Virus record (IMG/VR): IMGVR_UViG_3300036790_000248
Location: 1 to 62,346 of that record
Source of the DNA: a virus
Direction: 5' to 3' (one strand)
DNA: 62,346 bases
In this document: in pieces, positions 7,154 through 62,346 of the stretch
Layout: each line of letters opens with the position of its first letter
Position numbering within the stretch: position 1 is the stretch's first letter
Position numbers and translations under genes: made by a program
The notes under the pieces: generated by a model
Database searches by the model: none
Seen by the model: the letters and a program-made list of their open reading frames with translations, nothing else
What the model was told of the DNA's origin: nothing

Positions 7154-7642
7154 TTACAACGCATTTGCGGCTTGCCACACTGCGACAAGTCCGCCGCTCG
7201 CTGCTAAATTCCTGACTTCATCCGGGGGTTCGGCAATCGGCCATGGGCCATTTAACTGGAAATGCGGCGCGTCGGGCAAGTTGCAAAAGTCTGACCCGGA
7301 AACCATGCCTAACGCCTTCCCTGCATTCTCCATCATGCCCCAGGTGGAATGAGTTAAATTCCAGTCGGGAGCATATGCCCGATCCGGGCCAAACTGTGAA
7401 GGCACGACATCCACCGCCAACCCGAAGTTGTGATAACTGTAGCCTCCGCGCACGTTGGTGACAATGTTGCCTGACTTGGTGCGCCCCTGAGCGTATAAGC
7501 CGTCCTGCTCGGAAGATGTTCTGAGGGCTTGCACGACGCGCAGATAGATTCCCTCTTGAGAGAGATTTGAGGCCAACTGACGAATCAATCGGCCGAGGGC
7601 AGGTGCGACTCCACCCAAGCGCATTTCGCTGACTGCATCCAT
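7154..7642 (-). CDS. Endolysin, M15-type peptidoglycan peptidase
   Basis: Encodes 162 residues. The signature of the M15 (VanY/CwlK-like) zinc peptidases is clear: SYHNFGLAVDV places His71 and Asp78 as zinc ligands, and LPDAPHFQL gives Asp124 and His127. Such enzymes cleave peptide bonds in the peptidoglycan stem, often L-Ala-D-Glu. There is no signal peptide, so a holin is expected to release it. The small membrane protein at 7643..7849 ends immediately before its ATG, and further membrane proteins lie upstream, forming a lysis cassette. Confidence 0.9.
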   Translation of the reverse strand: MDAVSEMRLGGVAPALGRLIRQLASNLSQEGIYLRVVQALRTSSEQDGLYAQGRTKSGNIVTNVRGGYSYHNFGLAVDVVPSQFGPDRAYAPDWNLTHSTWGMMENAGKALGMVSGSDFCNLPDAPHFQLNGPWPIAEPPDEVRNLAASGGLVAVWQAANAL

Positions 7643-8803: not shown

Positions 8804-9276
8804 TTTCCCTCCGGATTCAACGTCGTCGTTTTCGATTGAAGTTGAGTCACTTCGGTTGTCTGCGTAACGAGTTGCGCCTGCACCACGGCAGTCTGCGGCA
8901 AGGGGCCGGGCATTTGCGGGACGATATCCTTCACGAAGGGGATCTTGGTCACCGAGAAGTCCACAACGGAATCGACCACATACCCAAACATGGCCGCCAC
9001 GGGAGCAAACTGCGTAATCATGGAAACGCCCCATGAATAGTTCTCCCAGCCGAAGTAGGCGAGAGCTTTGTCAGTCACTCCCGGAGTGAACAGCAGCCAA
9101 AAGGCCGTGCCGTCGATGAAGGCGCGCACTAGCAGAGGGGCCCACGATCTTTGCAGCCAATGGGTGTAACTGGTGGCAATGGGATTCGGCGGATTGATGC
9201 CGAAATAAGCCCTCTTGAGCCAGAAGGTGGCCATCCCGATGGTAAACCAGAGCCAGAGCCAGAGTTCGTGCTTCAT
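8800..9276 (-). CDS. Membrane protein of the lysis region
   Basis: Encodes 158 residues from ATG 9276, which shares a base with the stop of the collagen-like gene. It has an N-terminal segment ELWLWLWFTIGMATFWL, a middle segment near residues 48-65 and a third around 83-105, then a soluble Gln/Thr-rich tail. It could be a larger holin or an anchor protein. No family is recognised. Confidence 0.62.
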   Translation of the reverse strand: MKHELWLWLWFTIGMATFWLKRAYFGINPPNPIATSYTHWLQRSWAPLLVRAFIDGTAFWLLFTPGVTDKALAYFGWENYSWGVSMITQFAPVAAMFGYVVDSVVDFSVTKIPFVKDIVPQMPGPLPQTAVVQAQLVTQTTEVTQLQSKTTTLNPEGK

Positions 9277-9860
9277 CAGTGGCACCCCGAAAGCGTGACC
9301 GTGCCGTTATGCGCGGTCGTGAGCTTGGAACAGATGAAGGAGGGAGGCATCGCGCCGGCAGGGCCTTGCTTGCCCGTAGCCCCAGTCGGCCCGGTTGCGC
9401 CGGTTGCGCCCTTCGGCCCGGCGGGGCCTGTGGCTCCAGCCACGCCCTGCACGCCCTGCGGCCCGGTAGCTCCCTGCGGGCCGGTAGGCCCAGTAGCTCC
9501 CTGTGCGCCCTGACTCCCAGCCGGGCCGGGAGAGCCGGGAGGCCCAGATGGCCCCGGCGGCCCAACCTGCGGCACGTACCCCGCGCCGGAATCGACGAGG
9601 ATCGCGCCGTTGCTGAGGCATACGACGGGGATCGCGGCGGTGCCAATGCCGGGAGGACACGGCGCGGCGGTCGTGGCGGCGGTGAACGAGATCGTGGTCG
9701 TGGGCGATGCGCCCGGCTGCGGGATCACGTAGATCGGCCCCTGGATGCACGTGGCTCCAGCGGGCGCGGTCGTAGGACACTTGACGACTTGGCCGTGCGC
9801 CGTCGCTGCAAACGGCAGCAGCAGAAGCAGCAGGGTTAGCAGGGCCCGGTGGATACGCAT
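9276..9860 (-). CDS. Secreted collagen-like repeat protein
   Basis: Encodes 194 residues from ATG 9860 with AGGAGG upstream. A Sec-type signal peptide ([18 protein letters not shown]) is followed by a Cys-containing domain and then more than twenty Gly-X-Y triplets (for example [16 protein letters not shown] and [16 protein letters not shown]), closing with a short [17 protein letters not shown] domain. Collagen-like stretches form trimeric rods in phage fibres; here an export signal precedes them. It is the third in a row of signal-peptide proteins (with 9836..11491 and 11476..13569). It may be a secreted or periplasmic rod, or a fibre component. The longer open frame upstream has no start support. 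Confidence 0.78.
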
Positions 9861-11491
9861 ACTGGCTTTCCTCCTACTGCGATTTGGTGCGAGCCGTTGA
9901 CTGCGTGCTGGACGCCGTCGAGGGACTCGTAGGTCGTGTAGCCTGCGGGAACGGTGACCGTGGTGCATCCCGTGCCGCCGATCGTGTTTGGACAAGTGTA
10001 GCCGGAGTTGGAGTCGGTGGCGGAGGAATCGTAGACGAATAATTCGGGTGAGCCGCCGGAGCTGGTGAATGGTTCCGCGTAGACCGTGCCGGCAGGATTA
10101 GCGAACGTGCCGGGCACGCCGCCGATCATCCACAGCGCCAGACGGTCGAATCCGTTGCCGCCCAGCGTACCGACGAGGGCCGTGAACGATCCCTTGCCGT
10201 CCATCTGGTACCAGTCGCAATCCTGATAGCCGAGGAAGGCGCAGTAGAGATAGCGCCGGGTCGCGTCGGCTTCAAGGCAATCCCCGGTGGTGCAGAGCAT
10301 GGATTTGGTGCCAAACTCGTCCGCCGTCTTGGGCATCGGGATCAGATGCGTGAAGAAGGTGCCGTTGTGGGACGCCCCGGACTGCGAGACGCATCCCGCG
10401 GTGAGTTCGCAGACCAGCCAGCCGTTGGTGGCGATGAAGGATTCGGGAGTGTCCGGGTTGCCGTCGGGATGGATGTTGAGAACGTCGATCACCTGCCAGC
10501 CGAACACGGTGGCGGAGGCGACGGTGGGACATCCGGCGGGGTAGCCGTTGGTGCCGCCGACCAGTGTCGGAGTGGTGACCGAGGTGGCGATGAAGTTGTC
10601 GAGGATGTTGCCCGGCTGCACGGTCAGGACGTGGGACGATGGCGAGTAGATGACGGTGGAGGGGGATTTGCAGTTGAGGAACGCCCGGAGGTCGGCCCCG
10701 CGCCGCACCATGGCCTTGTTCATCAGGGCGGTGGTGTTGTTGGACGAGAGTGGAGAGGTGCCGCCACCGCAGCCCGCGCCGTTCCAGCACTGGAAGCCCT
10801 GCGTGTCCCATTCGTTCTGGAGTTCGATCGCGTCGAGCGTGATGCCCAGGCTGTTGAGATGAGTGATGAGGTTCGACAGGAACGTGAACATGGTCGTGTC
10901 GGTTTCCGTCGAGCCGCCCTGGGTGTTGTCGTCGTAAGCGCGGCAGGAGTTAGTCACGTCCGGCGAGCAACAGCCCGCGACGCCGCCGCAGGAGCCGACG
11001 GAGATCGTGCCCGCGAGGGCCGCGCCCGCGGGCGTGTCGCCGAGAGTGTAGATGACTTTCATGGGCGCATTGGGTGCGCCGGTGAATCCCGCCGTCTGCT
11101 TGCAGCGTTGCACGATGCTGTCCAGCGCCGTCCAGTTGAAGGAGTATGTGTGCGCGCCAACCGGGCCGGAGACGGTCATCAGCTGGCCGATCTTGGCGCC
11201 GGAATCCCAGATGCGACAGGTGCCTTGCTGCATGGCCGCGCCCGCGAGGTCGCGCGGCGGCCACGAAGGCGTAGAGGAATTGAAGATCCCGCCGAACATG
11301 CGCGGCAGGATGGACGGGCCGGGTGGCGGCGGAGTCGGGCCGCTGAGGCCGGAGATGGTGGTCTGGCCGCCAATCGCGGTCTGGCCGCCGACGACGGACT
11401 GCGCGGACAGCGGCGACGGCCAAGCTAGCAGCGCCGCCAGCAGGGCAGCGGTAACGAGAGAGATCGCGGTGGCGGTTATTTTATGGCGCAT
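9836..11491 (-). CDS. Secreted clan GH-A-like glycoside hydrolase (putative)
   Basis: A product of 551 residues. Signal peptide residues 1-30 end PSPLSA before QSVV. The core has the landmarks of a (beta/alpha)8 glycosidase of clan [13 protein letters not shown] with Glu227 as possible acid/base, [11 protein letters not shown] near 334-344, and TADEFGTK with Glu392 as possible nucleophile. Many cysteines suggest an oxidised, extracytoplasmic protein. The start overlaps the end of the fibre-like gene by 16 bases and no clear ribosome site is seen, so translational coupling is likely. It would degrade a polysaccharide; the substrate is unknown. That it is exported rather than simply attached to the virion is inferred from the signal peptide. 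Confidence 0.72.
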
Positions 11492-13569
11492 ACGAAAGCG
11501 TTCGCGTCGATGTTGAGTGTGCCAGCCGCGTTGCTGGTCGCGGCTTGGATTGTGAAGGTAGTTGAGCTGCCCGTAGTGACCGGGCCGCTGATGCGGACAG
11601 GGTAGTAGGTGCCCGTTGCTGCGGCGGCGGCCGCGGCGGTGACCAGCGCCCCGTTGGTGGTCTGGCGTCCGAAGGTGTGCGTCTGGGTGGTGGCGTTCGC
11701 GCCAATCTCTACGTTGAGCGACATGTTGGCCGGGGCGGAGGTGAAGTTGATGCCGAACTCCGCGGATTCGGCGGCGGTAGTGAATTTGTAGGTGCCGACG
11801 CAGTCGAGGAGTACCGCCGTCGCGCCCTGGATCGAGGTCGGATAGGTGAAGGCTGTGGTGCCGCCAGTCGTGCCATTTGAGTACGGCGACGCCGGGCCGA
11901 CCGTGGACGGCAGCGAGGTGGCGATGTTGACGCCGGAGGATCGGAGGCAGCCGGAGCCATCGCCGACCGCGACGATACCGTTGGCCATTCCGCCAAGGGA
12001 CGCCGCGCCGCAGGCGACGTTGGCCGCCGTCGAGCCGGAGAGGCCGAGGAACGAGGTCAGGGATTCGGAGCCGGACAGCGCCGGGAACAGGAGGATCGAG
12101 CCGTTGGTCGACGATGGCCCGGTGCCGGGCAGGCCGATTCCGTATTCCGCAGTGATTGTCGTCGGCGCGAACAGGCAGATGACGTTGGACGCCGCAGCGG
12201 CCTGGCAGGCGGTAAGCGGGTCAGGGCCCTGCTCGACGCCGAGGTAGCCGGCGGTGGAGGCGTTGGAGGTGGCGAGGGAGTTGAAGAATCCCGCGCCGGT
12301 GATGTCCACCGAGTAGAGGGTCGAGCCGCCGGCGGACTTGCCAAGGAGGAAGTTGCCGGTCGGAGTCGTGTCAGTAAATCGCGTCTGCTGGAGAACGGTG
12401 TTGCCGTTGGCGAGTTGCGTCTGTTGCTCGTTGCTGATGGCGAGCAGCGTGGGGATGGAAATAGTCGGGTTCGCACCAGCCGTAACGGTAATCTGGTTCG
12501 TAGTGCCCGTGATGGTAGCGATGCCAGAAGACGAGCATCCGGTGCAAGTGCCGCTGATGGTGATGTTCCCAACGGTCGTATTGCCGGTCACAGAGAGCGT
12601 GCTGCCGAGGCTGACTGGAACGCTGAGAGTCGTCAACGTCGTGTTGAAGTCGGCTATCGTGGTTACGCCGGACGTCAGAGTGATGTCGGTCTGGCTCCAG
12701 GATTGACCTGTACCGGTGCCGGTCGCACCGGTGAATAACTGCCACCCGTTTACAGGCGCGCCGCTTCCGCCAGCCTCAATACGGTTGCGAGGATTCCCGG
12801 AATTGAAGTCTTCGATGATGAGGGTCAGGCCGGTAGCGGTTCCCGGAAGCACGCGGAATAGCGCGCCAGTGGCGCCAGAATTAGTGAAATCGCAGGTCGA
12901 GGTGACGAGGCATTGCCACGCCTGATAGGTGCCGGAAGTTTGCGTCCACCCCACGGCGCCGTAGTCCGTCGCCAAGGGAGTCAGTGCTCCGGTTCGAGCC
13001 CCGCCCGCGCCGCCGGTGAACGATAACACTCCTGTGTTAGCGATCGTGGTCGTGCCCAGGGAATTGCTGATGCTGAGGCCGGGAGTCGTCACAGCGAGAT
13101 TCAGCAGGGCTTGGTTCCCGTTTACGATGCCGCTGGTCTGGAGCACGATGGATGTCCCGCCCCCGCCGCCGCCCGTGCCGGAGACAGCCGCGTCGTTCCA
13201 CGTGAACGGGGCTGGGAGCTGCGGGTAGGCCGGCGATGGGTTGCAGGAGGCGTCGTTCGAGATGGTCACGTCGTACTGGGCCGATTGGGACGCGAAGAAC
13301 AGGAACGATGCGTCCGCGTTGGCGCAGAAGGGATTGGCCAGCGGCGTGGAGGTGACGGTCGAGTAAATAGTGGCGAGGGTCGGCGATCCGGTGATGAACA
13401 CGCTGACCTTGCAGCGCGGGTACGTGCCCATCAGCGGATTCGAGGAGGAGATGCCGCTAACCGAGGCCAGCACATCGCCGGACTGGCACCATTGTTGAAA
13501 CGATCCGTTCTGCGCAAGGGCAGGAGCGGCGCAGGCCAGCAGGAGGAGCGGCAGAAGTCGCCGGATCAT
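11476..13569 (-). CDS. Fibre-like protein with Sec signal peptide
   Basis: A protein of 697 residues from ATG 13569; this ATG overlaps the stop of the adaptor gene and follows GGAGGG. The signal peptide MIRRLLPLLLLACAAPALA precedes a Thr/Ser/Gly-rich beta-repeat body (SLGSTLSVTGNTTVGNITIS and similar), typical of trimeric fibres. A C-terminal domain from about residue 600 has a pattern also seen in 59917..61359 (strand-rich, tyrosine then cysteine-containing strands). It is followed by the glycosidase-like and collagen-like genes. A longer frame to 13794 is open but lacks start support. A receptor-binding or surface-exposed fibre is the best guess; a signal peptide on such a protein is unusual. 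Confidence 0.72.
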   Translation of the reverse strand: MIRRLLPLLLLACAAPALAQNGSFQQWCQSGDVLASVSGISSSNPLMGTYPRCKVSVFITGSPTLATIYSTVTSTPLANPFCANADASFLFFASQSAQYDVTISNDASCNPSPAYPQLPAPFTWNDAAVSGTGGGGGGTSIVLQTSGIVNGNQALLNLAVTTPGLSISNSLGTTTIANTGVLSFTGGAGGARTGALTPLATDYGAVGWTQTSGTYQAWQCLVTSTCDFTNSGATGALFRVLPGTATGLTLIIEDFNSGNPRNRIEAGGSGAPVNGWQLFTGATGTGTGQSWSQTDITLTSGVTTIADFNTTLTTLSVPVSLGSTLSVTGNTTVGNITISGTCTGCSSSGIATITGTTNQITVTAGANPTISIPTLLAISNEQQTQLANGNTVLQQTRFTDTTPTGNFLLGKSAGGSTLYSVDITGAGFFNSLATSNASTAGYLGVEQGPDPLTACQAAAASNVICLFAPTTITAEYGIGLPGTGPSSTNGSILLFPALSGSESLTSFLGLSGSTAANVACGAASLGGMANGIVAVGDGSGCLRSSGVNIATSLPSTVGPASPYSNGTTGGTTAFTYPTSIQGATAVLLDCVGTYKFTTAAESAEFGINFTSAPANMSLNVEIGANATTQTHTFGRQTTNGALVTAAAAAAATGTYYPVRISGPVTTGSSTTFTIQAATSNAAGTLNIDANAFVCAIK

Positions 13570-14585
13570 GCGATCCCTCCCGGCGCGGCGGTTCCGGCCT
13601 GGGTGTTGTAGAACGGGTAGAGGTCGGAGCCGTCGTTGAGGCGGTAGGTCGTGTAGAAGTTGTCCACACGCTCGCGGTCGGCCATGCGGTCGCGTTTGAG
13701 CAGGGTGTCGTACTCGGATCGCGCCGCGCCCATTAGATATTGGAAGTTGGGGCCGACGCCGCGCGGGGCGAGTCCCTTGTTGGCCTCCGCCCACTCGTAG
13801 GCGTAGACGCGGGCGAGGGCCATGACCGTGTCCTCCCCGATCGCAGGCGGGAGTACGTCGCCGTTGGCTGCAAGGTCAAGCCCGGCGCGGATGCCGTAGA
13901 GCTGGTAATTGAGGTTGAAGGTTGGCGCGCCCCATAGCTCGAAGCGGAGAGCGTTGAAGGTCGGCGATCCCGCGACTGAGTCCGGCGCGTAGGGGACAAC
14001 GTCGGTCGGGATGCCGTACCACGTCCGCTGCGGGTCGCGCATGTCGAGGTCGCGGCGCGTGTAGCGATCCGTGTACAGAGAGCGGAAGTCAGACATGTCG
14101 CGGACGCTGATCCACGATTTGAAGTCCGTGATCGGCGAGTTAGATACGGTGGGGATGTAGTAGCACTGGTAGATCTGGAACGCCGATCCGGTCGTGGAAG
14201 CCTCGCCCCACCAACGGTCGAGGGTCAGCGTTGCCTCGGTCGAGGAGGGAGTGTTGGGCACGTAGGCAAGGATGTCGTAGAGGCAGGAGGACGCGATCCG
14301 AAACTGGCGCGAAGTGATGAGCGAGTAAGGTTGCGTCGGCAGGAGGGTGGCGAGGGCCGCGCCGTCGGCTGCGCTGAGGACGACGGTGGCGGAACCTTGC
14401 GTCGTGGCAGCGGAGATGCCGGTGTATTGTGCCGGGGCGATCCACTGCCCGTTGAAAAGGAGGAACGACCACAGGTTGCGCTCGCGGATGGTACGCCAGG
14501 CACGGTTCACCAGAGTACCGGTGTAGGAGTACGCCAGCTTGGGTACGCTGCCTCGTAGCTCCGTTCGCATGGATAAGAACGACAT
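13566..14585 (-). CDS. Head-tail adaptor-like structural protein
   Basis: Encodes 339 residues from ATG 14585. The N-terminus ELRGSVPKLAYSYTGTLVNR and the C-terminal helical segment DTVMALARVYAYEWAEANKG recall adaptor proteins that bind under the portal in short-tailed phages. It lies downstream of the capsid and decoration genes, separated from them by a hairpin at 14620..14643. Its stop overlaps the start of the fibre-like gene by four bases. The assignment rests on position, size and helix pattern. Confidence 0.6.
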   Translation of the reverse strand: MSFLSMRTELRGSVPKLAYSYTGTLVNRAWRTIRERNLWSFLLFNGQWIAPAQYTGISAATTQGSATVVLSAADGAALATLLPTQPYSLITSRQFRIASSCLYDILAYVPNTPSSTEATLTLDRWWGEASTTGSAFQIYQCYYIPTVSNSPITDFKSWISVRDMSDFRSLYTDRYTRRDLDMRDPQRTWYGIPTDVVPYAPDSVAGSPTFNALRFELWGAPTFNLNYQLYGIRAGLDLAANGDVLPPAIGEDTVMALARVYAYEWAEANKGLAPRGVGPNFQYLMGAARSEYDTLLKRDRMADRERVDNFYTTYRLNDGSDLYPFYNTQAGTAAPGGIA

Positions 14586-15785: not shown

Positions 15786-16928
15786 TTAGAAACCTGCGCC
15801 GTAGAGCTGTTCGTTGTCGCGGGGCGACACGGTATACACGTTGATCCCCACCTTGAAGAACCCGACCACGTTGTCCGGGTTGGTCTGCGAGCGAATCCAC
15901 GGGGTAAAGTTGAAGTTGTACTCCGGGTCGCTGGTCGGACGAACCTTCCATCCCTTGGTGCGGAGCCAGAAGAACGGCTCGCCGGGATTGATGGTCTTGT
16001 TGGCCGGCAGGTTCGAGATGGACGAGATGCCGGAGGCGGCCGAGGTGAACGTCGACGGCTTGATGGCGGTGGTCTGCGACAGGCCGGAGGGGAGGATCTG
16101 GCCGTATTTCGTCGACGGGCACAGTTTGTCAACCATGATCAGCGCGTTCATCACGCGGATGCCCACCATACCCATGTTCACGTCCTGTTCCTCGGCGTAG
16201 CGTTGCTTGGGCTCAAGGCGCTCCAGCAGGTACGCGTAGAGGGCTTTGTTGCAGACGCCGAGATCGGGTTCCTGGACGCAGTTGAGGTAGGCTTCGACGA
16301 GAGGCTTGTAAGTGATCTGGCCCGTGCCTCCGTTCTGGTCGCCCAGCCAGATCGGAATCGAGTTCAGGGTGTTGCCGACTGCGCCGTTGCGCGTCTGGCC
16401 GCCATAGGTGGTGAAGATGTTGCCGTCCCACGAGTTGGTCACGCCGTCGTTGAGCGCCTCGGAGAAACCGTTGATGAAGATGACACGGTTCTGGGAGATC
16501 GTGGTGCCGGATGCCTGGCCGTGGCGGAAGATGTCGATGCCAAGGTCGGTGTTGGCCGCCTGGACGGCGTTGGTCATGTAGGCGTCGATGATTTTCACCT
16601 TCGCCGCAGGCCCGGCGTTGATCACGCCTACCTGCCACAGGTTGACCGGAATCTGCTCGACGTACTCCTTGGGCACGAATCCAGTCGCGGCCAGAATCTG
16701 CTTCTGCATGACCGTGAGGTCGGAGCCGGGCGCGATGGCGCCGCCGTTGACGCGCTGGTACTGGAATGGCGTCTGCATGATCGTGCCGCCCATGTACTCG
16801 TCAAGCGCGCCGGAGAGGCGCATCTTGCGGAGGGTGGTCGAGTCGACGAAAAAGTTGTCGATGACGATGTCGTCCTTGAGGTCGGCCAGCGTTGTCGCGG
16901 AAATTTGGTCAAAACTCGGATCGGCCAC
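15786..16928 (-). CDS. Major capsid protein
   Basis: A 380-residue protein from GTG 16928 with AGGAGA upstream. It begins MADPSFDQISATTLADLK, followed by segments such as RVNGGAIAPGSDLTVMQKQ and EQIPVNLWQVGVINAG, and it has the alternating alpha and beta character of HK97-fold shells. It lies directly downstream of a scaffold-like gene and downstream of portal and terminase in the standard order. Size fits an HK97-fold coat protein without a fused protease. No protease gene is evident, so maturation may not need one. Confidence 0.85.
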   Translation of the reverse strand: MADPSFDQISATTLADLKDDIVIDNFFVDSTTLRKMRLSGALDEYMGGTIMQTPFQYQRVNGGAIAPGSDLTVMQKQILAATGFVPKEYVEQIPVNLWQVGVINAGPAAKVKIIDAYMTNAVQAANTDLGIDIFRHGQASGTTISQNRVIFINGFSEALNDGVTNSWDGNIFTTYGGQTRNGAVGNTLNSIPIWLGDQNGGTGQITYKPLVEAYLNCVQEPDLGVCNKALYAYLLERLEPKQRYAEEQDVNMGMVGIRVMNALIMVDKLCPSTKYGQILPSGLSQTTAIKPSTFTSAASGISSISNLPANKTINPGEPFFWLRTKGWKVRPTSDPEYNFNFTPWIRSQTNPDNVVGFFKVGINVYTVSPRDNEQLYGAGF

Positions 16929-18775: not shown

Positions 18776-19009
18776 TTAGGACGGGTCGCCGATGGACTCG
18801 CGCTGCTCGAAGTGGGCGGAGGCCGCCGAGCCTTCGGTGAGGTCGATTGAGAGTCGGCCCGTGGCACGTTCGGAGATGAGAAGGCACAGGATGTCGATGA
18901 CGAAGCCAGCGATTTCGCGGCGGTTGCGGAGCCAGCGGCGGGAGCGGGACAGGAAGTGGCGCTCGTCGGTGATGTATTCGGGGATCGCGGACGAGGCAGG
19001 AGTGGCCAT
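18776..19009 (-). CDS. Small head-region protein
   Basis: Seventy-seven residues from ATG 19009, one base overlapping the portal stop. It contains a helical RRWLRNRREIAGFVIDILCLL segment with a moderately hydrophobic face. It is the last gene before the non-coding gap with the internal promoter. No family is recognised; it is coupled to portal translation. Confidence 0.6.
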   Translation of the reverse strand: MATPASSAIPEYITDERHFLSRSRRWLRNRREIAGFVIDILCLLISERATGRLSIDLTEGSAASAHFEQRESIGDPS

Positions 19010-21036
19010 CAGACGACGCGCCCCCCTCCCGCGCTCTCAGTAATTGTGCTTCTGCCGTTTGGCTTCTCCTTAAGAGCTGGAGCCTCTTGGCCGGAGGGTG
19101 GGCGGCCTTCCTGTTGCTTGCCGCCCGCTGCGGCGCCTGCGGGATTCATCGCCCCTTGTTCCGTTAGGCTCATGCCCAACTCTTTCATCCGCGCCGCGAA
19201 CATCAGGTTGAGTTCCTGCTCGTTCTCGAATTTCTCGCGCACCGTCGATCCCTTGATATGGCCGTAGTTGGGCACGTTGCACGCGTCGGCAATGGTCTGC
19301 GAATCGATCTGGATGCCCGCCTTCTTGAGCTGAATGAGCATCAGGCGCTGGGACATCTGCGTGATTTCATGGAGTGAGCGCGGCGTGATGACGAAACGTA
19401 AGGCCGACGCGAACACTCGTGCGCGCGCGATCTTGCCCGTCGGAGACTCTTTCGGCGCGGTCTTGGTGCCGGGGTCTTCGCCGGGGAGGTGTGATGGCAC
19501 CATTGTGTCCGGGTCGTAGTCGAAGGGCTCCATGGTCATCGCGTCCTCGCCGACCACCTGCATGAACCGGGCCGGGGGGACGTATTGCAGCGACAGGAAC
19601 TTCACCTGGTCGGCGATCTCGCGCATCGGCGGCTCCATCGAGCGCGACATGTCCTCGACGATCGGCCCGGCGGATTCGAGGATCTTCTCCAAGTCGTCGC
19701 CCGCGCCGCGGGCCTTGGCGAGGGCCAGCGCGTCGTGGATGCCGTGCTGCGAATCCATGGCCTCGCGCAGGAGTTCGTAGAATTTCAGCGTCTCGGCGGA
19801 GGTAGCGTAGACCTCCGGCGGCACGACCATCTCGAAGGGCTTGGAGGATTGTGCTCCGTCGAACCCGGCGCGCACCCGCGGCTGCATAGGGTCGAACTGC
19901 TGCGCCTCCTTCTTGGTCACGGAGTTGATGTCGTAGGCCAGCGGGAGGTCGAGCTTGGCGCGCTCCTTGTCCATGGTGCCGCGCTCGATCTCGGTCATGG
20001 ATTGCTGGATGTCGTAGCCGTCGCGCACCATCGAGAAGCCGAGAGGTTCCCACGGCCAGTGGTCGGTGGAGAACGGGACGGCGGGGAAGCGACCGTGCCA
20101 GTCGAACGAGGGGCCGTCGTAGAGGACGACGGATTCCGAGGAGATGAGCAGGCGGCGGTAGGGGTACAGGAGGTCGCCGGGCTGGACAGTGTAGGCCCAC
20201 GACGTGCCCGGCTCGCCCATCGGGATGTCGCGGGAGGTGGTGTTGCGCGTGAGGTCGATGACGTAGGTGTAGCGGATCGGCACCATTAGGTCGCCGATGC
20301 CGGGCAGCGCGGACGAGGACTTGCCGAACGAGAACATCCGTTGCCACAGGTTGCCCTGCGCCGAACGCCGGATTTCGTTGGAGTACCAGTAGAGGGAGGA
20401 GGTCGGGCGGAGTTCCGATTGGTAGCGGGGGAACATCCCGTGCGCCATGTAGATCGGCATCTCGTCGAGGATGGTCATCGCGTACGCCTGCTGGAAGTCG
20501 CCGGACGGGGGGAGCTGCGTGGGGAGGATGCAGGGCGCGCCGTAGGACAGAAGGCGGACGGCTCCCTGGCCCTGGCCGCCGAAGTCGCGGGAGTAGACGG
20601 GCCGGATCCATCCGGTCGAGGTGGCGGCGGCGTACTGGAGGGCTTCCTTGATTTTCACGTCGGCGTAGGTTTCCAGCCACCACGCGCGGACGTAGAGGTT
20701 GAACAGTTCCGCGTTGGGCGCGAAGGCCGGGTTGTCGGAGGAGTAGCCCCATAGAGGGCGGAGTTTCGCCAGCGTGCCCACGACCTCGCGGATGTTGCGT
20801 TTGAGATGGTTCGTGTTCAGAGAGGATCGGTATTTCACCGGTTCCGGGCCGACGCGGCCGGAGATCACGTCAAGGGCGCGGCGCCAGTCGGTGTGGCCGC
20901 GCTGGCGCTTGAGCCAGTCCATGCCGGATTCGGTGTTTTCGTTGAGCCAGCCGAGGCGGCGTTCCGGCGGCGCGGCAGCAGGCGGGCACTGCCACTCGTG
21001 GAGTTTGCCGTCGTTGCGGGGAGAGTCGACGCTCAT
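19009..21036 (-). CDS. Portal protein
   Basis: A 675-residue protein from ATG 21036, overlapping the stop of the upstream gene by four bases. It lies between the large terminase and scaffold-capsid genes, the canonical portal position, and has the size expected for a short-tailed phage portal. The N-terminal part (GMDWLKRQRGHTDWRRALDV, SSLNTNHLKRNIREVVGTLA) and the long C-terminal helical region (SLHEITQMSQRLMLIQLKKA) fit portal architecture. It forms the dodecameric DNA gate at the capsid vertex. The last 50 residues are a Pro/Gly-rich, probably disordered tail. Confidence 0.82.
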   Translation of the reverse strand: MSVDSPRNDGKLHEWQCPPAAAPPERRLGWLNENTESGMDWLKRQRGHTDWRRALDVISGRVGPEPVKYRSSLNTNHLKRNIREVVGTLAKLRPLWGYSSDNPAFAPNAELFNLYVRAWWLETYADVKIKEALQYAAATSTGWIRPVYSRDFGGQGQGAVRLLSYGAPCILPTQLPPSGDFQQAYAMTILDEMPIYMAHGMFPRYQSELRPTSSLYWYSNEIRRSAQGNLWQRMFSFGKSSSALPGIGDLMVPIRYTYVIDLTRNTTSRDIPMGEPGTSWAYTVQPGDLLYPYRRLLISSESVVLYDGPSFDWHGRFPAVPFSTDHWPWEPLGFSMVRDGYDIQQSMTEIERGTMDKERAKLDLPLAYDINSVTKKEAQQFDPMQPRVRAGFDGAQSSKPFEMVVPPEVYATSAETLKFYELLREAMDSQHGIHDALALAKARGAGDDLEKILESAGPIVEDMSRSMEPPMREIADQVKFLSLQYVPPARFMQVVGEDAMTMEPFDYDPDTMVPSHLPGEDPGTKTAPKESPTGKIARARVFASALRFVITPRSLHEITQMSQRLMLIQLKKAGIQIDSQTIADACNVPNYGHIKGSTVREKFENEQELNLMFAARMKELGMSLTEQGAMNPAGAAAGGKQQEGRPPSGQEAPALKEKPNGRSTITESAGGGRVV

Positions 21037-21251
21037 CGCCGGGGCACCCAGTCCAGCCACAGGACGGAAGGTTGTGGGTCGGCGCGGAGAGTCGATTCGG
21101 CCTCCGCACGGCGGGACTCCATCAGGGCGTGTTCCGCGGCGTCGCAGGTGTCGGAGATCCGGTAGGTAAAGGAGCCGTCGGGCAGAAGCTCCCCGGCGGC
21201 GAGGATGCGTTGCGCGCCCGCGTGAGAGTCAATGAAGGCTTGGTCGATCAT
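21033..21251 (-). CDS. Small hypothetical protein
   Basis: Seventy-two residues (MIDQAFIDSHAGAQRILAAG at the start, WLDWVPRR at the end). Four-base overlaps with both neighbours show tight coupling between the 138-residue gene and portal. It is acidic and soluble, with no domain recognised. Confidence 0.62.
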   Translation of the reverse strand: MIDQAFIDSHAGAQRILAAGELLPDGSFTYRISDTCDAAEHALMESRRAEAESTLRADPQPSVLWLDWVPRR

Positions 21252-21699: not shown

Positions 21700-23958
21700 T
21701 CACAATTCGTCCAACGTCAAAGGTCGGTAGGCGTCGAGCGACGCGGTGGGGAAGCGCGCGCCTGCCGAAGGCGAGATGTCGATCGGCGGCAGGCGGGTGG
21801 CGTTGGCGTCGCCCATGAACCGTTTCGCCGTACGGTCGGTCTTGGATTGCTTGCCGCGCACGATCTCGATGGAGATGGCGGCGGCGAAGATGCCGTCGTC
21901 GTGCTCGCCGTCCTCGTGCTCCTGCTTGACCTTGCCGCTGGCGGTGGAGTGGGACTCGAAGTGCTCGCATTCGTGCAGCGTCCACGGGGAGTTGAGCTCG
22001 TACCAGCCGTTGCGGATGGCGTCGATGAACGAGCCGATGAGGATCGGGCGCGACCAGCCGAACGTGTACCAGCCCAGTTTGTTGGACTTGGTGGACTTGG
22101 CCGAGTCGTAGCGCTGGAAGCGGAAGATGCGCGCGTATCCCATCTGGCGCATCTGCGTGGTGACCACGTCGCCGACCGACGCCACCTGTTCCGGCGCGAC
22201 CAGTGGTTGATGGTGCAGCGCGCCGGGATCGGTCATGGCGGCGGCGTAGTAGGACGCGATGGCCATGGCGAACGCGAACGCCTGCACGTGCGAGACGTAG
22301 CAGGAGCGGAACTCGGCGGCCTGAACGTCGGGCAGGCCGGGCCGGGGCGCGATCTCGGTGACGCAGATGACGGTCGAGTCGTTGCCCGTGCCGCCAGCGG
22401 TGTCGATGCCGATGGAGTAGTCGACGCCGGAGCGCGGCGGGTGCCACACGAACAGTTTGCCCTGCGCGTAGTCCCAGAACGCGTCGGGATTGGAGTGGCG
22501 CCAGGCGTCGACGCGGGCGTGGTCGTGGAGGAGCGGGATGAGCTCCCAGTTGTAGACGGGCCCACGCGGAGAGCGGAACGTGACCGGGATGCGCGGGCGC
22601 GGCGCGGAGGAGGAGCCGTAGTCGATGTCGTCCGGCGGAGGTTCGTACTCGTCCTCGATGGATTGGCCGGAGATGCCGTAGACGGCGTAGTCGCGCTTGC
22701 GGGCGCGGTCGACGCGATCCATCACGTCATAGCCGAACACGGACTCGGACGAGCGCTGGAGGGCTTCGGTGTCGTCGCCCGCCATCTCCTGAAACCACGT
22801 GGATTCCAGTCCCTTCGCCTTAGCTTCCTCATGGCCGATTTCCCAATAATATTGTTGCTCCAGCGGCATCGAGCCGTCGGCCCACCACGACCGTTTATCG
22901 CGCGGCAGGGTAGGATGCGGCGCGCACAGGTGGCGGCGGATCATGTCATGCGTACGGACGTACAACTCAGCCTTGGCCACGTGCTCCCGCGTATCCGGCA
23001 GGCGGCGGGAGTGGAAGTCCGGCGGAACAGGATGCGCCCGCAGCCACGCAGGCTTCGGGTAGATATCGAGTCCCACGAACCACGGCAGGAACAGCGGCAG
23101 CAGGCGCGATTGGCCCTCGGCGAAGTTGGACTTTGAGAAGCGCCAGGTGTCGGCCCACCAACCGACGTCGCCTTCGCCGGTGGATTCGAGAATGCCGAAT
23201 ATCGAGGGAGAGGGGTGGACGGCCTTGAACAGCGCGGCTTCGATCTGGTCGGCGGCGTTGGAGAACGATGCGCATTCGGAGAGATGGTAGACGGTCGGCG
23301 TGGCGCCGCGAGCGATACCACTCATTTGGTTGCCGTGCTGGATCGAGACGCCGGAGTTGAGGGAGCCAAATTCCAGCTTCCCACGGTCACTCTCGACGCG
23401 CGCCGTGTACTGAGGCCGCAGCCACACGGGAAGCATGTCGTATGCCATCAGGAGTTTCTTGGCCATCATGAGGGATTTCCCCTGATCGGCGGACGCGATG
23501 ACCGCGTTGACGCCGTAGGAGAACACGATGCGGATCATGATGAGGAGTTCGACGACGGTGGTCATGCCCAGCTGGCGCGCCTTCAGGATCATGATTTCGA
23601 TGGCCACGTCACGGGATTCGAGGTCGCCGATGATGCCGAACAGGATGGCTTGCGCGATGCGAAACGCGAACCGCCGGATCACCCCTTCCTCGTCGATCAC
23701 GAAGCCGTAGCGGGTGACGGCGTAGTCGGCGTCGCACATGACGAGGCAGCGCTCGTTGAGCATCCACTGGCGCTCCCAGGCGTCGAGATGGTGGACGCTG
23801 CAGGGGCGTCCGTCGGCGTCGAGGATGTAGCGGGATTCGTCGGTGAGCCACGTCTCGAACGCCTCGACCTCGTCGATCGAATGGCGCACGGGGACGAAGC
23901 CGAAGACGTCCTCGACTTCGGTGCGGATGCGGGCGGCGACTTTGTCGGGGTGGTACAT
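21700..23958 (-). CDS. terL: Terminase large subunit
   Basis: A 752-residue packaging motor. The ATPase part carries a Walker A-like KARQLGMTT at 126-134, a Walker B-region VYHLSECASF near 223-232 (Glu228) and the coupling-type ESTGEG at 258-263. QEMAGDDTEALQRSS near 390-404 is also typical of the family. The RNase H-like nuclease has GIDTAGGTGNDSTV (Asp519) and HDDG (Asp687-Asp688). It translocates DNA into the prohead and cuts it. Position just upstream of portal is standard. The N-terminal 100 residues before the ATPase are longer than in many homologues. Confidence 0.93.
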   Translation of the reverse strand: MYHPDKVAARIRTEVEDVFGFVPVRHSIDEVEAFETWLTDESRYILDADGRPCSVHHLDAWERQWMLNERCLVMCDADYAVTRYGFVIDEEGVIRRFAFRIAQAILFGIIGDLESRDVAIEIMILKARQLGMTTVVELLIMIRIVFSYGVNAVIASADQGKSLMMAKKLLMAYDMLPVWLRPQYTARVESDRGKLEFGSLNSGVSIQHGNQMSGIARGATPTVYHLSECASFSNAADQIEAALFKAVHPSPSIFGILESTGEGDVGWWADTWRFSKSNFAEGQSRLLPLFLPWFVGLDIYPKPAWLRAHPVPPDFHSRRLPDTREHVAKAELYVRTHDMIRRHLCAPHPTLPRDKRSWWADGSMPLEQQYYWEIGHEEAKAKGLESTWFQEMAGDDTEALQRSSESVFGYDVMDRVDRARKRDYAVYGISGQSIEDEYEPPPDDIDYGSSSAPRPRIPVTFRSPRGPVYNWELIPLLHDHARVDAWRHSNPDAFWDYAQGKLFVWHPPRSGVDYSIGIDTAGGTGNDSTVICVTEIAPRPGLPDVQAAEFRSCYVSHVQAFAFAMAIASYYAAAMTDPGALHHQPLVAPEQVASVGDVVTTQMRQMGYARIFRFQRYDSAKSTKSNKLGWYTFGWSRPILIGSFIDAIRNGWYELNSPWTLHECEHFESHSTASGKVKQEHEDGEHDDGIFAAAISIEIVRGKQSKTDRTAKRFMGDANATRLPPIDISPSAGARFPTASLDAYRPLTLDEL

Positions 23959-34461: not shown

Positions 34462-34497
34462 AGGCAAATGGCACAGACGACACGGAGGATGGAAATG

Positions 34498-35115
34498 AAG
34501 CGTGAGTTACAGCCTGCAATTGAAGCGACGTTGCGTTGGCCGGATGGTTGGCCGCGCACCCTCATTGAGCACCGCCAGTCGCGGAGCGCATGGAAAAAGC
34601 CAGCCATCGAATACCAGAAAGCGATCACAAAGGAACTGATTGCGTTAAAGGTGACCGCTGCAAGTATCACTTTCAATGCTTCGGGCTCCCGCGATCCAGG
34701 CGTTGCTGTGTGGTACTCCCTAGAATCCGCCGATGATGTCTCGTGGCAGATAGGGTTGCAGATCGACAACCCCGCCCCGACGCTGGCAGAGATTGATACC
34801 GCTTTTAAGCGGTTGTCTGTGAGGTGTCATCCGGACACTCATCCCGACGACGCGAACGCTCTTGAAATGTTCAAGAAAATCAATGGTTTCAGAATGGCCG
34901 CCCGCGCCTACATTCTGGGGACTGCGGCTCCGGCACTGGAGAACTGCTTCCCGATGGATCGGTTCGTGGACGTGAAGCAAAATCTCGCTGGAGCGCGTTT
35001 GTTTATCGCATACGTTCGCGGCATGGAGCGGCTCGGCGGCCCTGCCGTCGTGAAGCGAATCATGGAGCGCACATTCCGCACAGCGTTGACCGCTGGCGCA
35101 TCGGAGGCAGCATGA
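34498..35115 (+). CDS. J-domain (DnaJ-like) protein
   Basis: Encodes 205 residues from ATG 34498 behind GGAGG; an ATG at 34468 would add ten residues. The middle carries a J-domain: TLAEIDTAFKRLSVRCHPDT with the HPD signature at 111-113, then an amphipathic helix with FKKINGFRMAARAYILG. J-domains stimulate DnaK-type Hsp70 ATPase. An N-terminal domain of 85 residues may choose the client. It probably recruits host DnaK for replication-complex or capsid remodelling, as inferred from the HPD. Confidence 0.75.
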   Translation, partial: KRELQPAIEATLRWPDGWPRTLIEHRQSRSAWKKPAIEYQKAITKELIALKVTAASITFNASGSRDPGVAVWYSLESADDVSWQIGLQIDNPAPTLAEIDTAFKRLSVRCHPDTHPDDANALEMFKKINGFRMAARAYILGTAAPALENCFPMDRFVDVKQNLAGARLFIAYVRGMERLGGPAVVKRIMERTFRTALTAGASEAA

Positions 35116-38200: not shown

Positions 38201-38521
38201 GTGATCAAGGCGATTAGGACAGTTTTAGCTGTATCAATTCTTGGAGGTTGTGCAATGGCGCAGCAATTCACTCTTCCGGTGCAACAAGGCACGCTGAAGC
38301 GGGTTGAGCAGATTTCCGCTGACGAAAAGGCCGAGTTGCAAAAAGCAGCCGATGCAGTGACCAAGGCGCAAGCAGATTTCGAGGCCGCAAAATCCAAGGT
38401 TGCTACGGCACACAAAATGACCCGCGAAAACTACATGGAATGGTCATCGTGGTACGAGTTCGACGGCGATTTCATATTGCAGCGATTTTCGTTCAACATA
38501 GTAAATCACGTTGGATGGTGA
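38201..38521 (+). CDS. Small secreted protein or lipoprotein
   Basis: Encodes 106 residues from GTG 38201 with AGGAGG upstream. A signal peptide with an LGGC lipobox-like site (IRTVLAVSILGGCAMAQ) allows either lipidation at the Cys or cleavage after AMA. The mature part has a coiled coil (ISADEKAELQKAADAVTKAQ). It could be a phage-encoded envelope protein affecting superinfection, or a lysis partner. Both are inference. Confidence 0.6.
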   Translation: MIKAIRTVLAVSILGGCAMAQQFTLPVQQGTLKRVEQISADEKAELQKAADAVTKAQADFEAAKSKVATAHKMTRENYMEWSSWYEFDGDFILQRFSFNIVNHVGW

Positions 38522-42135: not shown

Positions 42136-42852
42136 TTGGCGAACGATGCGATTGGCGACCGGATGAAGGGGCAATATGAGAACCGGACACGTATTTTTCT
42201 GCCGCGCCGGACGTACACGATTCTGCGGGTGGATGGTAAGGCGTTCCACTCCTACTGCGCGAAGATGGAGCGGCCATACGATGTGAAGTTTATGGGTGCG
42301 ATGGATGTTACTGCTGCCACGATGCTGAAGGAGTTGATGGGCGCGGAGTTTGCCTACATCCAGTCTGATGAGATTTCTTTCCTTCTGACGGACTTCGCCA
42401 AGACGAGCACCGAGGCGTGGTTCGACGGCAATGTACAGAAAATGGCGAGCGTGGGCGCATCCATGGCGACGGCTGTATTCTCGGCTCAGATGGGGTGCGG
42501 CTTGCCGATGTTCGATGCGCGGGTGTTCACTATTCCCGATTATGTCGAGGTCGAGAACTACTTCGTCTGGCGGCAGCAGGATGCGGTTCGTAACTCAATC
42601 CTGATGCTGGCGCAGCACTACTATTCGCCGAAGGAAATGCACGGCAAGAATTGCTCCGTATTGCAAGACATGATCCACGACAAGGGAGACAATTGGAATA
42701 ATCACCCAACGAGATTCAAGCGCGGAGGCTTCGTCTGGTACAACCGCGAAACGCTGCCCTACCCGTCGTGGGAGATTGACGATGCGCCTAACTTTACGGG
42801 CGAAGAAGAGCGCCCCAAATTCGCCGCACTGATTCCGAAACATGGCTACTGA
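42136..42852 (+). CDS. Thg1-like 3'-5' nucleotidyltransferase
   Basis: Encodes 238 residues from TTG 42136, seven bases after GGAGG. ILRVDGKAFHSYCAK (Asp33) and FAYIQSDEISFLL (Asp78, Glu79) match the metal-binding motifs of tRNA-His guanylyltransferase and Thg1-like proteins, which add nucleotides to RNA 5' ends. There is no tRNA gene in the window, so the substrate would be host tRNA, for example tRNA cut during anti-phage defence. Repair of damaged tRNA is inference. Confidence 0.85.
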   Translation: MANDAIGDRMKGQYENRTRIFLPRRTYTILRVDGKAFHSYCAKMERPYDVKFMGAMDVTAATMLKELMGAEFAYIQSDEISFLLTDFAKTSTEAWFDGNVQKMASVGASMATAVFSAQMGCGLPMFDARVFTIPDYVEVENYFVWRQQDAVRNSILMLAQHYYSPKEMHGKNCSVLQDMIHDKGDNWNNHPTRFKRGGFVWYNRETLPYPSWEIDDAPNFTGEEERPKFAALIPKHGY

Positions 42853-57763: not shown

Positions 57764-58201
57764 TTACTGTACGAATCCCGTTACCAGCGCCGAATCGCCA
57801 TTGTTGTCGGCGTCGATATAGAACTGGTAGCCGGAGAATGTGTCCCGCACTCTGGGCGCGCTGCTGATGAATATCGTCTGCCCCGGCAGCAGCACGGCCA
57901 CCATGGCGCCGTAGTCGTCCCGGTTGCCGAGTCCCTGCACGCCCTTACGCATGATATACACGTTGCCTGCGTTGGTCTGAAGGCCGTCTGTGTTGGCCTT
58001 GAATCCCTGAAACATGAGTTGCTGGAAGCACGACGTGTACTCGTCGCTGCTGGCGGTCGTGGCCGTCTCCGGCGCGTTGACCGACGAGGGATCGACCAGT
58101 GACATGATACCGACGGGCGTGCCTGCCGCCGCCACGACGATCAGCCCCAGCGGCCACGTCGGGCCCGACTTCCAGTCCTTCATTACCGATTGCGTCGCCA
58201 T
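57764..58201 (-). CDS. Probable structural protein
   Basis: Encodes 145 residues from ATG 58201 with GAGGAG upstream. A hydrophobic N-terminal stretch (TWPLGLIVVAAAGTPVGIMS) leads to a beta-type domain (GAMVAVLLPGQTIFISSAPR; YQFYIDADNNGDSALVTGF). It resembles small virion decoration proteins. No family is recognised. Confidence 0.55.
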   Translation of the reverse strand: MATQSVMKDWKSGPTWPLGLIVVAAAGTPVGIMSLVDPSSVNAPETATTASSDEYTSCFQQLMFQGFKANTDGLQTNAGNVYIMRKGVQGLGNRDDYGAMVAVLLPGQTIFISSAPRVRDTFSGYQFYIDADNNGDSALVTGFVQ

Positions 58202-59916: not shown

Positions 59917-61359
59917 TTAATTAGTCTGCGTTAACTGGCAGGAGGCGTTCGCCCCTACCGTGATGTTGTTCGTCCCGTTGGCCGCAGTCTGTAACGTTAG
60001 AGCTGTACCGGAGGCCGTGGCGCCGTTCTGTATATTCGCGGCTACATGCACCCATTCTCCAGCCGCCGCCGCGCCGGAAGCGCCGGTCTTGGTTCCGTAG
60101 GCCGTTTGCGCCAAGGTCGTGATCTGCGCGTAAGCACCCGCCGCGCCGATAGGGCCGTCCGCCTCAAGGCTGTAGGAAGTCGCGGTGCCCGGCCCGCCAA
60201 GGCAGAACTGCAAAGTAGCCGAGGCCGCAAAAGTGACAGGTACCTCACACTTCAATACGTATCGCTTATTCGCTGCGATGTTCCACGTCATGCTCGTAAC
60301 GTTGGTACAAGTTGCCGTTGACTGAGCGGTCATTGCAGCTGTCAGGAAACCAGCACCCAGATCGACGAACCCGGCAGTCGTTCCCGCCGTGCCTGCGGTG
60401 GTTGTTGTGAACGATCCCGCCGCAGGAGTCGTGTTGCCGATGGCTGCCGGAGCGGCCCAGTTCTTGCCGACCAGAAGGCTGGCGTTCTGCGAGCCGTTGT
60501 CTGCGAAGTAATTCGTGCCGTCACTGCAAACGGTCGCTCGCGAGGCCACCTGCGCCGAGGAGGGAGCAGTCATCGTCACGCTCGTCACCGCGCCGTTAAT
60601 GTTCTGGCCGCTACGAGCGATGGTCAGCACGCCGTTGCCATAGTTGACGACGTTGATGCACTGTGCTGCCGGAGGCTGCGAGCCGGAGGCGACAAGCGTA
60701 ATCGTAAAGGTACCGGACGCCGCGTAAATCGTGCAGTGGTTGGCGAAGTCGGCAGCCGTAACCTGGTAGGTCGCCGTTTGCGGGTTGATGCAACCTAACG
60801 CGGAAGTTGGTAAATTCATCAACGATGTGAACTCACTTCCGCCATGAATAGAGGCCACGTATCCTGAAGTCGAATCAGAGCGGATGTAACTTTGGCTAGC
60901 TTGCGGTGATCCCGCTACGGAGTTCTCCGTCGCTGCCATGCAGCCAGTCGCCGATCCGCAAGCCGTCGGAGGAGACGCGCCGACTGCGAACCCTGCCCCC
61001 GTATAGCCGAGAGTCGTGCCCGTGTCGGTGAGCAGCGTGTCACCCCCAAGGGTAGTCGGGCCCGTGTAGATCGCCAGCTGAGTCGCGGTGCCGGGAGTGA
61101 TCGTCCCACTACCTCCACCGCAAGGCGTGCCCGCATCCTGAATCTGTGTGTTGGAGAAGAAGCTGGAGCAATCCCCCGGCGTGATCGCGCCTTTCGTGGT
61201 CACAGTGCCGCCCGACGCCGACCCTTGTGCGGATGCCAAAGGGACGGCGGCTCCCATTACCAACCCAGCCAACAGGATAAAGGTTGCCGCCGCGTAACGC
61301 ATGCGGCCAGCATAACGGGAAAGTGGCGCGGAATCAATCGGATTCATGTCGTACCTCAT
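59917..61359 (-). CDS. Fibre-like protein with Sec signal peptide (second copy type)
   Basis: Encodes 480 residues from ATG 61359, overlapping the previous gene by four bases; ATG 61302 would give 461. The signal peptide AAATFILLAGLVMGAAVPLA ends SAQ. A Thr/Ser/Gly-rich beta-repeat body follows, and a C-terminal domain (NIAANKRYVLKCEVPVTFAA; EWVHVAANIQNG) has the look of jelly-roll fibre tips and a pattern like the end of 11476..13569. It is probably a receptor-binding or surface-attached fibre. Confidence 0.68.
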   Translation of the reverse strand: MRYDMNPIDSAPLSRYAGRMRYAAATFILLAGLVMGAAVPLASAQGSASGGTVTTKGAITPGDCSSFFSNTQIQDAGTPCGGGSGTITPGTATQLAIYTGPTTLGGDTLLTDTGTTLGYTGAGFAVGASPPTACGSATGCMAATENSVAGSPQASQSYIRSDSTSGYVASIHGGSEFTSLMNLPTSALGCINPQTATYQVTAADFANHCTIYAASGTFTITLVASGSQPPAAQCINVVNYGNGVLTIARSGQNINGAVTSVTMTAPSSAQVASRATVCSDGTNYFADNGSQNASLLVGKNWAAPAAIGNTTPAAGSFTTTTAGTAGTTAGFVDLGAGFLTAAMTAQSTATCTNVTSMTWNIAANKRYVLKCEVPVTFAASATLQFCLGGPGTATSYSLEADGPIGAAGAYAQITTLAQTAYGTKTGASGAAAAGEWVHVAANIQNGATASGTALTLQTAANGTNNITVGANASCQLTQTN

Positions 61360-61652
61360 GGCTTGTATACAATCTGGCCGCTGGCTCCGTCGTAAGTCAG
61401 GCGGTCGCCGTCGTTGGGCGTCATGGCCTTGACGAAGAGGCCACCGATTTTCGTCGTCGATGGGCCGTTGGCGACCTGCGACGCGAGGTCGGAGTGCTTC
61501 TTCGTCATCGTCGCCAACTGGCCCTGCGTCTCTTTCAGCCGATCCTGCAACGAATACACATGGTCGAACAGCAGCCGGAAGTCGTTGTGCAGATCCTTCG
61601 TCTTTGTCGGCGACGGGTAGTAGCGATTCTGTTGCGGGTCAACTTTGGGCAT
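61356..61652 (-). CDS. Small coiled-coil protein
   Basis: Ninety-eight residues from ATG 61652. A coiled coil (DHVYSLQDRLKETQGQLATM) is followed by a short beta module ending LTYDGASGQIVYKP, a pattern of trimeric fibre-attachment or tail accessory proteins. It overlaps the glycosyltransferase gene upstream by 14 bases and the fibre gene downstream by four. Confidence 0.62.
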   Translation of the reverse strand: MPKVDPQQNRYYPSPTKTKDLHNDFRLLFDHVYSLQDRLKETQGQLATMTKKHSDLASQVANGPSTTKIGGLFVKAMTPNDGDRLTYDGASGQIVYKP

Positions 61653-62346
61653 TCGCGCCTCCCGCGTCCCGTGGCCGCATCGGGTACGAGTCCTCGGCCA
61701 GACGGTAGACGCGCCCGTCCTGCCCCCAGTGGTCGCACAGCACGCCGCCGTGCGCCATCATGCGGAACCCCGCGTTGCGCAGGCGGTAGCAGAAATACAT
61801 ATCGTCCGTCCACTCCGTCGACAGCGGCAGGGCGTCGCCATTACGGTACAGGCCCAGCGACCGGGCATGCTCGACGCCGTGCACGTCCACGAACCACGGC
61901 TCCGGGAGATCGTCGAACACGGAGAGCCGGATCATCATGCAGCCCGTGGCGACGGCCTGACACTCGAACACATCGCCGCGCTTCCACCGCCAGTACGGCC
62001 CGATGCCGTAATCCTGAAACACCAGCGGTACCGCGGGATCGGATTTCGTGGTGTAGATGCCGCCCACCACCGCTACGTCCTCGTCGGCGTTCTCCAGTAC
62101 GTACTGTAACTTTTGCATCGCGTCCGGCGGCGGCACGGTGTCGTCGTCAAGGAACATGCCCCACCTGGCGCCGTAGCTCCGGGCCTGCTTGACCAGCGCA
62201 GTGCGCGCCGGGCCGCGATCCATGTCCTTGATCGAGAGGATGGCATGGCGGCAGTTGGCCAGCGGGGCCAGCAGAGAGAGCCCGATGCCCCACTCCGGTG
62301 GCTGGAAACGCAGCGAGCCGTCGCCGTTGCGCGACACGGTCGGCAG
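61639..62346 (-). CDS. Methyltransferase-glycosyltransferase, C-terminal part (starts at 923)
   Basis: The open frame enters from the right edge and, through the terminal repeat, is the second half of the gene starting at 923. Residues about 245-492 form a GT-A glycosyltransferase: MFLDDDTVPP carries the metal-binding DxD (324-326), then VGGIYTTK, ATGCMMIR, EWTDDMYFCYRLRNAGF and LCDHWG, which fit a GT2-like fold acting on a nucleotide-sugar. The internal GTG at 62337 is an artefact of the truncated frame, not the true start. Confidence 0.88.
   Translation of the reverse strand: MPTVSRNGDGSLRFQPPEWGIGLSLLAPLANCRHAILSIKDMDRGPARTALVKQARSYGARWGMFLDDDTVPPPDAMQKLQYVLENADEDVAVVGGIYTTKSDPAVPLVFQDYGIGPYWRWKRGDVFECQAVATGCMMIRLSVFDDLPEPWFVDVHGVEHARSLGLYRNGDALPLSTEWTDDMYFCYRLRNAGFRMMAHGGVLCDHWGQDGRVYRLAEDSYPMRPRDAGGANAQS
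62195..62346. repeat. Terminal direct repeat, right copy
   Basis: Repeats bases 1..152 with one difference (G at 62247 for T at 53), which changes one codon between His and Asn in the spanning gene. Confidence 0.97.

Follow-up and report, generated by a model that had tools for sequence, protein, structure and literature searches.

Predicted signal peptides on tailspike and fibre-like late proteins of a soil phage suggest export before virion loading

Gene content of the late region

The IMG/VR record IMGVR_UViG_3300036790_000248, a stretch of 62,346 nucleotides that was analysed in full and is hereafter called the window, probably comes from a soil phage with relatives among the viruses of Acidobacteriota. 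Its late genes lie on the minus strand and include five, here named A to E, whose products begin with predicted signal peptides, and the first of which is followed by a predicted virion-docking domain (Table 1). Downstream of the terminase, portal, and major capsid genes and then a conserved tail gene, the order is A, B, C, a membrane protein gene, and an M15 endolysin gene. The ATG of A overlaps the stop codon of the tail gene, the start of B overlaps the 3' end of A, and C is preceded by an AGGAGG-type ribosome-binding site. D and E are located at the right end of the window, with the ATG of E one base past the stop codon of D; the start of D given in Table 1 is our choice, and a longer ATG start at 61359 is also present. 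Because the minus-strand late genes are continuous, the sequence suggests a circular or circularly permuted genome, in which the late region would continue past position 1 into D and E. Scans for close relatives with B, E, and the N-terminus of A found only one near-identical contig, IMGVR_UViG_3300036830_000166.

Table 1. Positions of the late genes and domains in the window. Arrows mark predicted cleavage sites.
Feature	Coordinates	Strand	Details
Gene A, predicted tailspike/fibre with signal peptide	13569-11476	minus	697 aa; ALA↓QN; mature part with 14 Cys
Predicted head-binding (virion-docking) domain of A	13180-13512	minus	just after the signal peptide; Cys pair QWC...PRC
Gene B, signal-peptide protein	11491-9836	minus	551 aa; LSA↓QS; mature part with 20 Cys
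Gene C, collagen-like stalk protein	9860-9276	minus	194 aa; ATA↓HG; 6 Cys flanking the collagen repeat
Gene D, fibre-like, signal peptide	61302-59917	minus	461 aa; ASA↓QG; 12 Cys; likely start ATG 61302
Gene E, signal-peptide protein	59915-58233	minus	560 aa; AAA↓QA; 10 Cys
Conserved tail gene, directly upstream of gene A	13566-14585	minus	33% identity to Tunturi_1 gp11 'tail protein'
Major capsid	15786-16928	minus	
Portal	19009-21060	minus	
Terminase	21700-23958	minus	
M15/VanY endolysin, same late region, without signal peptide	7154-7642	minus	PF02557, E 4.8e-9; PHROG endolysins

Signal peptides of the late proteins

Signal peptides were predicted with a custom rule combining a positively charged n-region, a 9-residue hydrophobic core, and an AXA-type cleavage site, and 2000 shuffles of each same protein served as the control. 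All of A to E satisfied the rule with scores of 3.8-4.6, while their shuffled versions passed in 0-9 of 2000 cases. The N-termini of A, B, and C display the n-region, h-region, and c-region layout. Among the 41 other genes of the window, only a lipoprotein-like one (38201-38521) and a marginal one (57764-58201) passed. The former, on the plus strand of the early region, starts with GTG and encodes a 106-aa candidate lipoprotein with a signal peptide and a possible lipobox (SILGGC).

Judged from the sequences, the predicted N-terminal signal peptides of A, B, and C are real. The original prediction, that three coupled late genes encode strong signal peptides, held for these tightly packed minus-strand open reading frames, all three of which were accepted by the rule. 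Its list was incomplete, since two more late signal-peptide proteins, D and E, lie beyond the region it covered.

Docking domain of gene A

The 80-100 residues behind the signal peptide of A match the N-terminus of Jilinvirus fibres, which is annotated as a head-binding or tail-fibre N-terminal domain. Jilinvirus-type fibres (Escherichia Alux-21, ep3, and ECOO78; Serratia MQ-4; Klebsiella KA2-1) possess the same domain, annotated as head-binding or prophage tail fibre N-terminal, but unlike A they begin with it at residue 1 and have neither a signal peptide nor the Cys pair. A search of all PDB sequences with a 36-member profile of the domain found the Pan3 tail spikes (9vyg/9vyh, E 1.8e-6) and the head-binding domain of the Pam1 tailspike (7eeq, E 0.028). 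The domain was modelled by AlphaFold (AF2) with a predicted local distance difference test score (pLDDT) of 84, and the top four PDB matches of this model in Foldseek were 9vyg and 7eeq, with probabilities of 0.99-1.00, modest E-values of 4e-3 to 6e-2, and template modelling scores of about 0.5. Phage pectate-lyase and tail-spike proteins are among the viral predicted structures that share the fold. In the cyanophages Pam1 and Pan3 the head-binding domain docks the spike on the virion; the A form resembles it in profile and predicted fold but has an extra N-terminal segment, the Cys of which makes the pair, and a preceding signal peptide.

When 30 members of the docking-domain family were compared, the first 100 residues aligned in 86% of the pairs and the part from residue 150 to the end in 2%. 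A constant docking end joined to a variable binding end would correspond to the modularity of receptor-binding proteins. Within the late operon, gene A adjoins the tail genes and comes immediately after the conserved one. These profile and model comparisons support the assignment of A as a tailspike with a head-binding domain, which would place it in the virion. The earlier description of A as fibre-like is thus confirmed and, given the profile match and the top four Foldseek matches, can be sharpened to a tailspike.

Cultured relatives

The best annotated relatives of the window phage are the Tunturiibacter podoviruses Tunturi_1 and Tunturi_2 (PP887698 and PP885685), which have Acidobacteriota hosts; identity is 32% for the terminase and 33% for the tail protein. 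Like the window, they have a podovirus-type gene order with five signal-peptide proteins at the position equivalent to A-C, namely gp12 (MKKFIQLALLFILPAAASA↓QT), gp13, gp14 (tail spike), gp16, and gp17. The first of the five carries a homologous docking domain with the Cys pair, whereas the sequence behind the domain has no detectable similarity to A-E. Among the deposited genes of Tunturi_1, the rule was passed by five of the six genes gp12-gp17 versus 3 of 99 elsewhere (p 3.4e-6), these three being two lipoproteins and one membrane protein. Signal peptides are not mentioned in the published description of the two phages, which includes no proteomics (PMC11924767). The same gene order in related phages, which the original prediction had proposed looking for, is present in these two deposited genomes, where it has passed unremarked.

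Tunturi_4, an unrelated siphovirus of the same host genus, encodes two signal-peptide proteins, gp113 and gp114, and a separate fibre, gp111, which has no signal peptide. Its gp114 (L070:35018-37324) and gp17 of Tunturi_1 (L003:19474-23028) have in common an exported module of 600 aa with about 50% identity. Tunturi_3 infects the same strain, X5P2, as Tunturi_1 and Tunturi_2, and its fibres have no signal peptides. With this phage, an explanation of the signal peptides by host physiology was rejected, and the trait is therefore a property of a phage lineage and not of the host.

In the Vibrio phage 1.205.O, a distant relative by its terminase, the large fibre candidates failed the signal-peptide rule. 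Adjoining them is a gene for a 149-aa signal-peptide protein (L073:46490-46939), whose likeness to a pilus-type secreted domain was seen by eye only.

Gain and loss of the signal peptide among IMG/VR loci

Searched with a degenerate pattern, IMG/VR yielded 51 loci containing the docking domain. In about 30 of them a signal peptide directly precedes the domain, and the others begin at the domain itself (MQAYTGFAQQGD... or MQRAQGFAQQGN...). According to phmmer, nearly all loci of both kinds have the same tail gene upstream of that for the tailspike. In a tree of this tail gene the signal-peptide state changes at least four times, each change being forced by well-supported branches. For example, L035, which has a signal peptide, is sister to L041, which has none, and the clade of the window is sister to five loci without a signal peptide; this clade includes L025, which we scored as having a signal peptide despite the lack of a clear start codon. 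Loci with the signal peptide usually hold several more late signal-peptide proteins, and whole loci switch together. In the fetched stretches of the loci without it, no late signal-peptide proteins were found, small Rz1-like lipoproteins aside. A genome-wide scan for host-assigned prophages found two loci, one on a contig of a Methanoregulaceae metagenome-assembled genome (probably a binning error) and one in a single-cell genome.

This distribution bears on the possibility that the signal peptides are artefacts, produced by the choice of start sites or by hydrophobic stretches that arose by chance. The start codons are only predicted, and none is obvious in at least one relative, L025. Against this stand the shuffle control and the recurrence of the signal peptides in about 30 IMG/VR loci, in the deposited gene calls of Tunturi_1 and Tunturi_2, and in Tunturi_4. 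An artefact is, as far as the compared sequences go, largely refuted by this conservation, and we give it hardly any credence.

Two features of individual loci were also observed. In L017 (6457/7926), L023 (5551/7923), and L033 (5360/7923), the signal-peptide proteins encoded in tandem by one phage are paralogues that share the docking domain, which suggests two spikes, used as alternatives or as a pair. In addition, a motif [VI]x[VI]GN closely follows the predicted cleavage site in exported late proteins of L012 (6501), L038 (3690 and 5161), L039 (6718), and L051 (6313). The mature N-terminal motif VxVGN was present in 5-6 of the 65 exported proteins and in 2 of the 458 controls, the motif having been picked after inspection; it may possibly represent another docking end.

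Cysteine content of the signal-peptide proteins

The mature parts of A, B, C, D, and E contain 14, 20, 6, 12, and 10 Cys residues, all even numbers. Over all IMG/VR loci, the number of Cys was even in 34 of the 41 signal-peptide proteins of at least 200 aa (p 1.3e-5) versus 87 of the 186 other proteins, and the Cys content was about three times as high (1.85% versus 0.60%, p 6e-12); these p-values are optimistic, as the samples include related sequences, though the direction recurs across independent switches. The docking domain itself follows the same trend. Both residues of its Cys pair (YC...PxC) are found in nearly all signal-peptide forms, whereas in the domains without a signal peptide the first Cys of the pair is gone, and in some both are; the Cys flags of L026 and L055 arise outside the homologous position.

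Even and high Cys numbers would be an indirect footprint of disulfides, as in disulfide-bonded exported proteins, and therefore argue for export. With the signal peptides, this makes the predicted export of A-E out of the cytoplasm well supported. The hydrophobic N-termini could instead be uncleaved peptides that anchor cytoplasmic fibres in the virion or bind a chaperone, for which the location of the peptide immediately before the docking domain might speak. However, the peptides show the classic charge, hydrophobic, and AXA layout with turnover of their sequence, and the forms without the peptide lose the first Cys of the pair. An uncleaved anchor on a cytoplasmic protein is further disfavoured because it would not predict the even and high Cys numbers, which are particular to the signal-peptide proteins, and we regard it as very improbable.

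Genes B to E

Gene C, originally described as collagen-like, matched the collagen family PF01391 well above the cut-off of 27.2 (58.3 bits, E 6.3e-16), confirming that description. The description of gene B as glycosidase-like could not be confirmed: B had no family match in Pfam, NCBIfam, or PHROGs and no significant match in PDB, and its single-sequence fold was uninformative (pLDDT 32). We propose that B-E are additional exported components of fibre, stalk, or enzyme type. Adjoining D and E in the late region is a gene for a family 2 glycosyltransferase-like protein (61639-62337, minus strand).

Proposed route of the exported proteins

Tailed-phage assembly is generally described as cytoplasmic until lysis. 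For the window phage we consider it probable, on sequence grounds, that A-E are late proteins exported via the host Sec pathway and folded oxidatively in the periplasm, and that A is loaded on virions at lysis. Sec would export the precursors, and after cleavage by signal peptidase the mature protein would begin a few residues ahead of the docking domain. Disulfides would form and the parts would assemble in the oxidising periplasm, while heads with tail hubs would be made in the cytoplasm. Once the envelope has been breached by holin and endolysin, the particles would meet the folded spikes, which could dock via the head-binding domain, and the C-terminal part of A may serve as a variable receptor-binding or depolymerase module. 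We infer docking at lysis because the docking domain is identified and conserved, and because exported and non-exported forms exchange at one locus.

The original prediction had offered export during infection, virion parts acquired outside the cytoplasm, or secreted matrix-degrading and matrix-binding factors. Export gained support from the Cys pairing, the cultured phages, and the repeated gain and loss at the locus, with virion loading as the further step that we propose. The acquisition of virion parts outside the cytoplasm fits best, because A has a tailspike head-binding domain right after the signal peptide, and a matrix-degrading role found no positive support in the sequence.

Several points weigh against the proposed route. 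No docking domain was recognised in B-E or in gp13-17 of Tunturi_1, export is evidently not obligatory for phages of strain X5P2, as Tunturi_3 indicates, and the presumed host of the window phage is deduced solely from distant relatives. The first point is also what the main rival explanation would expect, namely that the exported proteins are periplasmic or secreted enzymes or adhesins outside the virion, which loosen exopolysaccharide, aid release, or shape the surroundings of the progeny, their fibre likeness reflecting domain recycling. Such a role would agree as well with the presence of the fibre gp111 beside the exported gp113 and gp114 in Tunturi_4, and with the exported module common to two unrelated Tunturi phages. 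A conserved head-binding domain would, however, be useless off the virion. Moreover, A occupies the place of the signal-peptide-less fibres of sister phages, behind the same tail gene, and receptor-binding proteins attached to virions typically combine a constant N-terminus with a C-terminus that varies completely. We therefore regard a non-virion role as rather unlikely overall, though it deserves serious attention, above all for B-E.

The exported spikes might also bind the receptor on or under the surface of the infected cell itself, and thereby block superinfection or the re-adsorption of progeny to debris. Export combined with a receptor-binding-type architecture would allow this, and phage-encoded envelope proteins such as lambda Lom are known (PMC12309495). 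On the other hand, A-E have neither an outer-membrane anchor nor a clear lipobox, the conserved docking domain would be left unexplained, and the position in the late operon also speaks against it; the probability of this explanation seems low to us.

Relation to known systems

Among the proteins of tailed phages, signal-peptide or signal-arrest-release (SAR) endolysins, Rz1 spanins, and lambda Lom use host export as A-E are predicted to do, but they are lysis or envelope proteins and, unlike A, have no virion-docking domain. In filamentous phages, the coat proteins pIII and pVIII are virion proteins that cross the inner membrane before assembly. These phages differ from the window phage in that they form an unrelated virus group, assemble at the membrane, and are extruded without lysis. 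The docking domain and the tailspike architecture are already known, whereas Sec-exported spikes or fibres of tailed phages were not found described in the open-access literature, subscription literature and most preprints lying outside the search. Within this scope, the original claim that no such system had been described holds.

If the proposal is true, exported disulfide-bonded tailspikes would imply a second maturation compartment for tailed phages. They would account for the ability of such phages to produce stable receptor-binding proteins rich in Cys, and Sec and Dsb of the host would join the requirements for infectious particles. A broader proposition, to which we would give even chances, is that a lineage of tailed phages builds its particles in two compartments, with the capsid and tail hub made in the cytoplasm and the receptor-binding spikes, given their disulfides by the host, in the periplasm. 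The two would come together only at lysis, and the signal peptide would act as an evolvable switch between spike maturation in the cytoplasm and in the periplasm. Cultured Tunturi phages with the same arrangement make the idea directly testable now.

Other genes of the window

Two plus-strand genes were observed apart from the late region. One (34468-35115) encodes a putative phage co-chaperone of 215 aa, which contains a DnaJ domain (PF00226, E 1.4e-7). The other (42136-42852) encodes a tRNA-His guanylyltransferase (Thg1, PF04446, E 1.1e-25), which is unusual in a phage.
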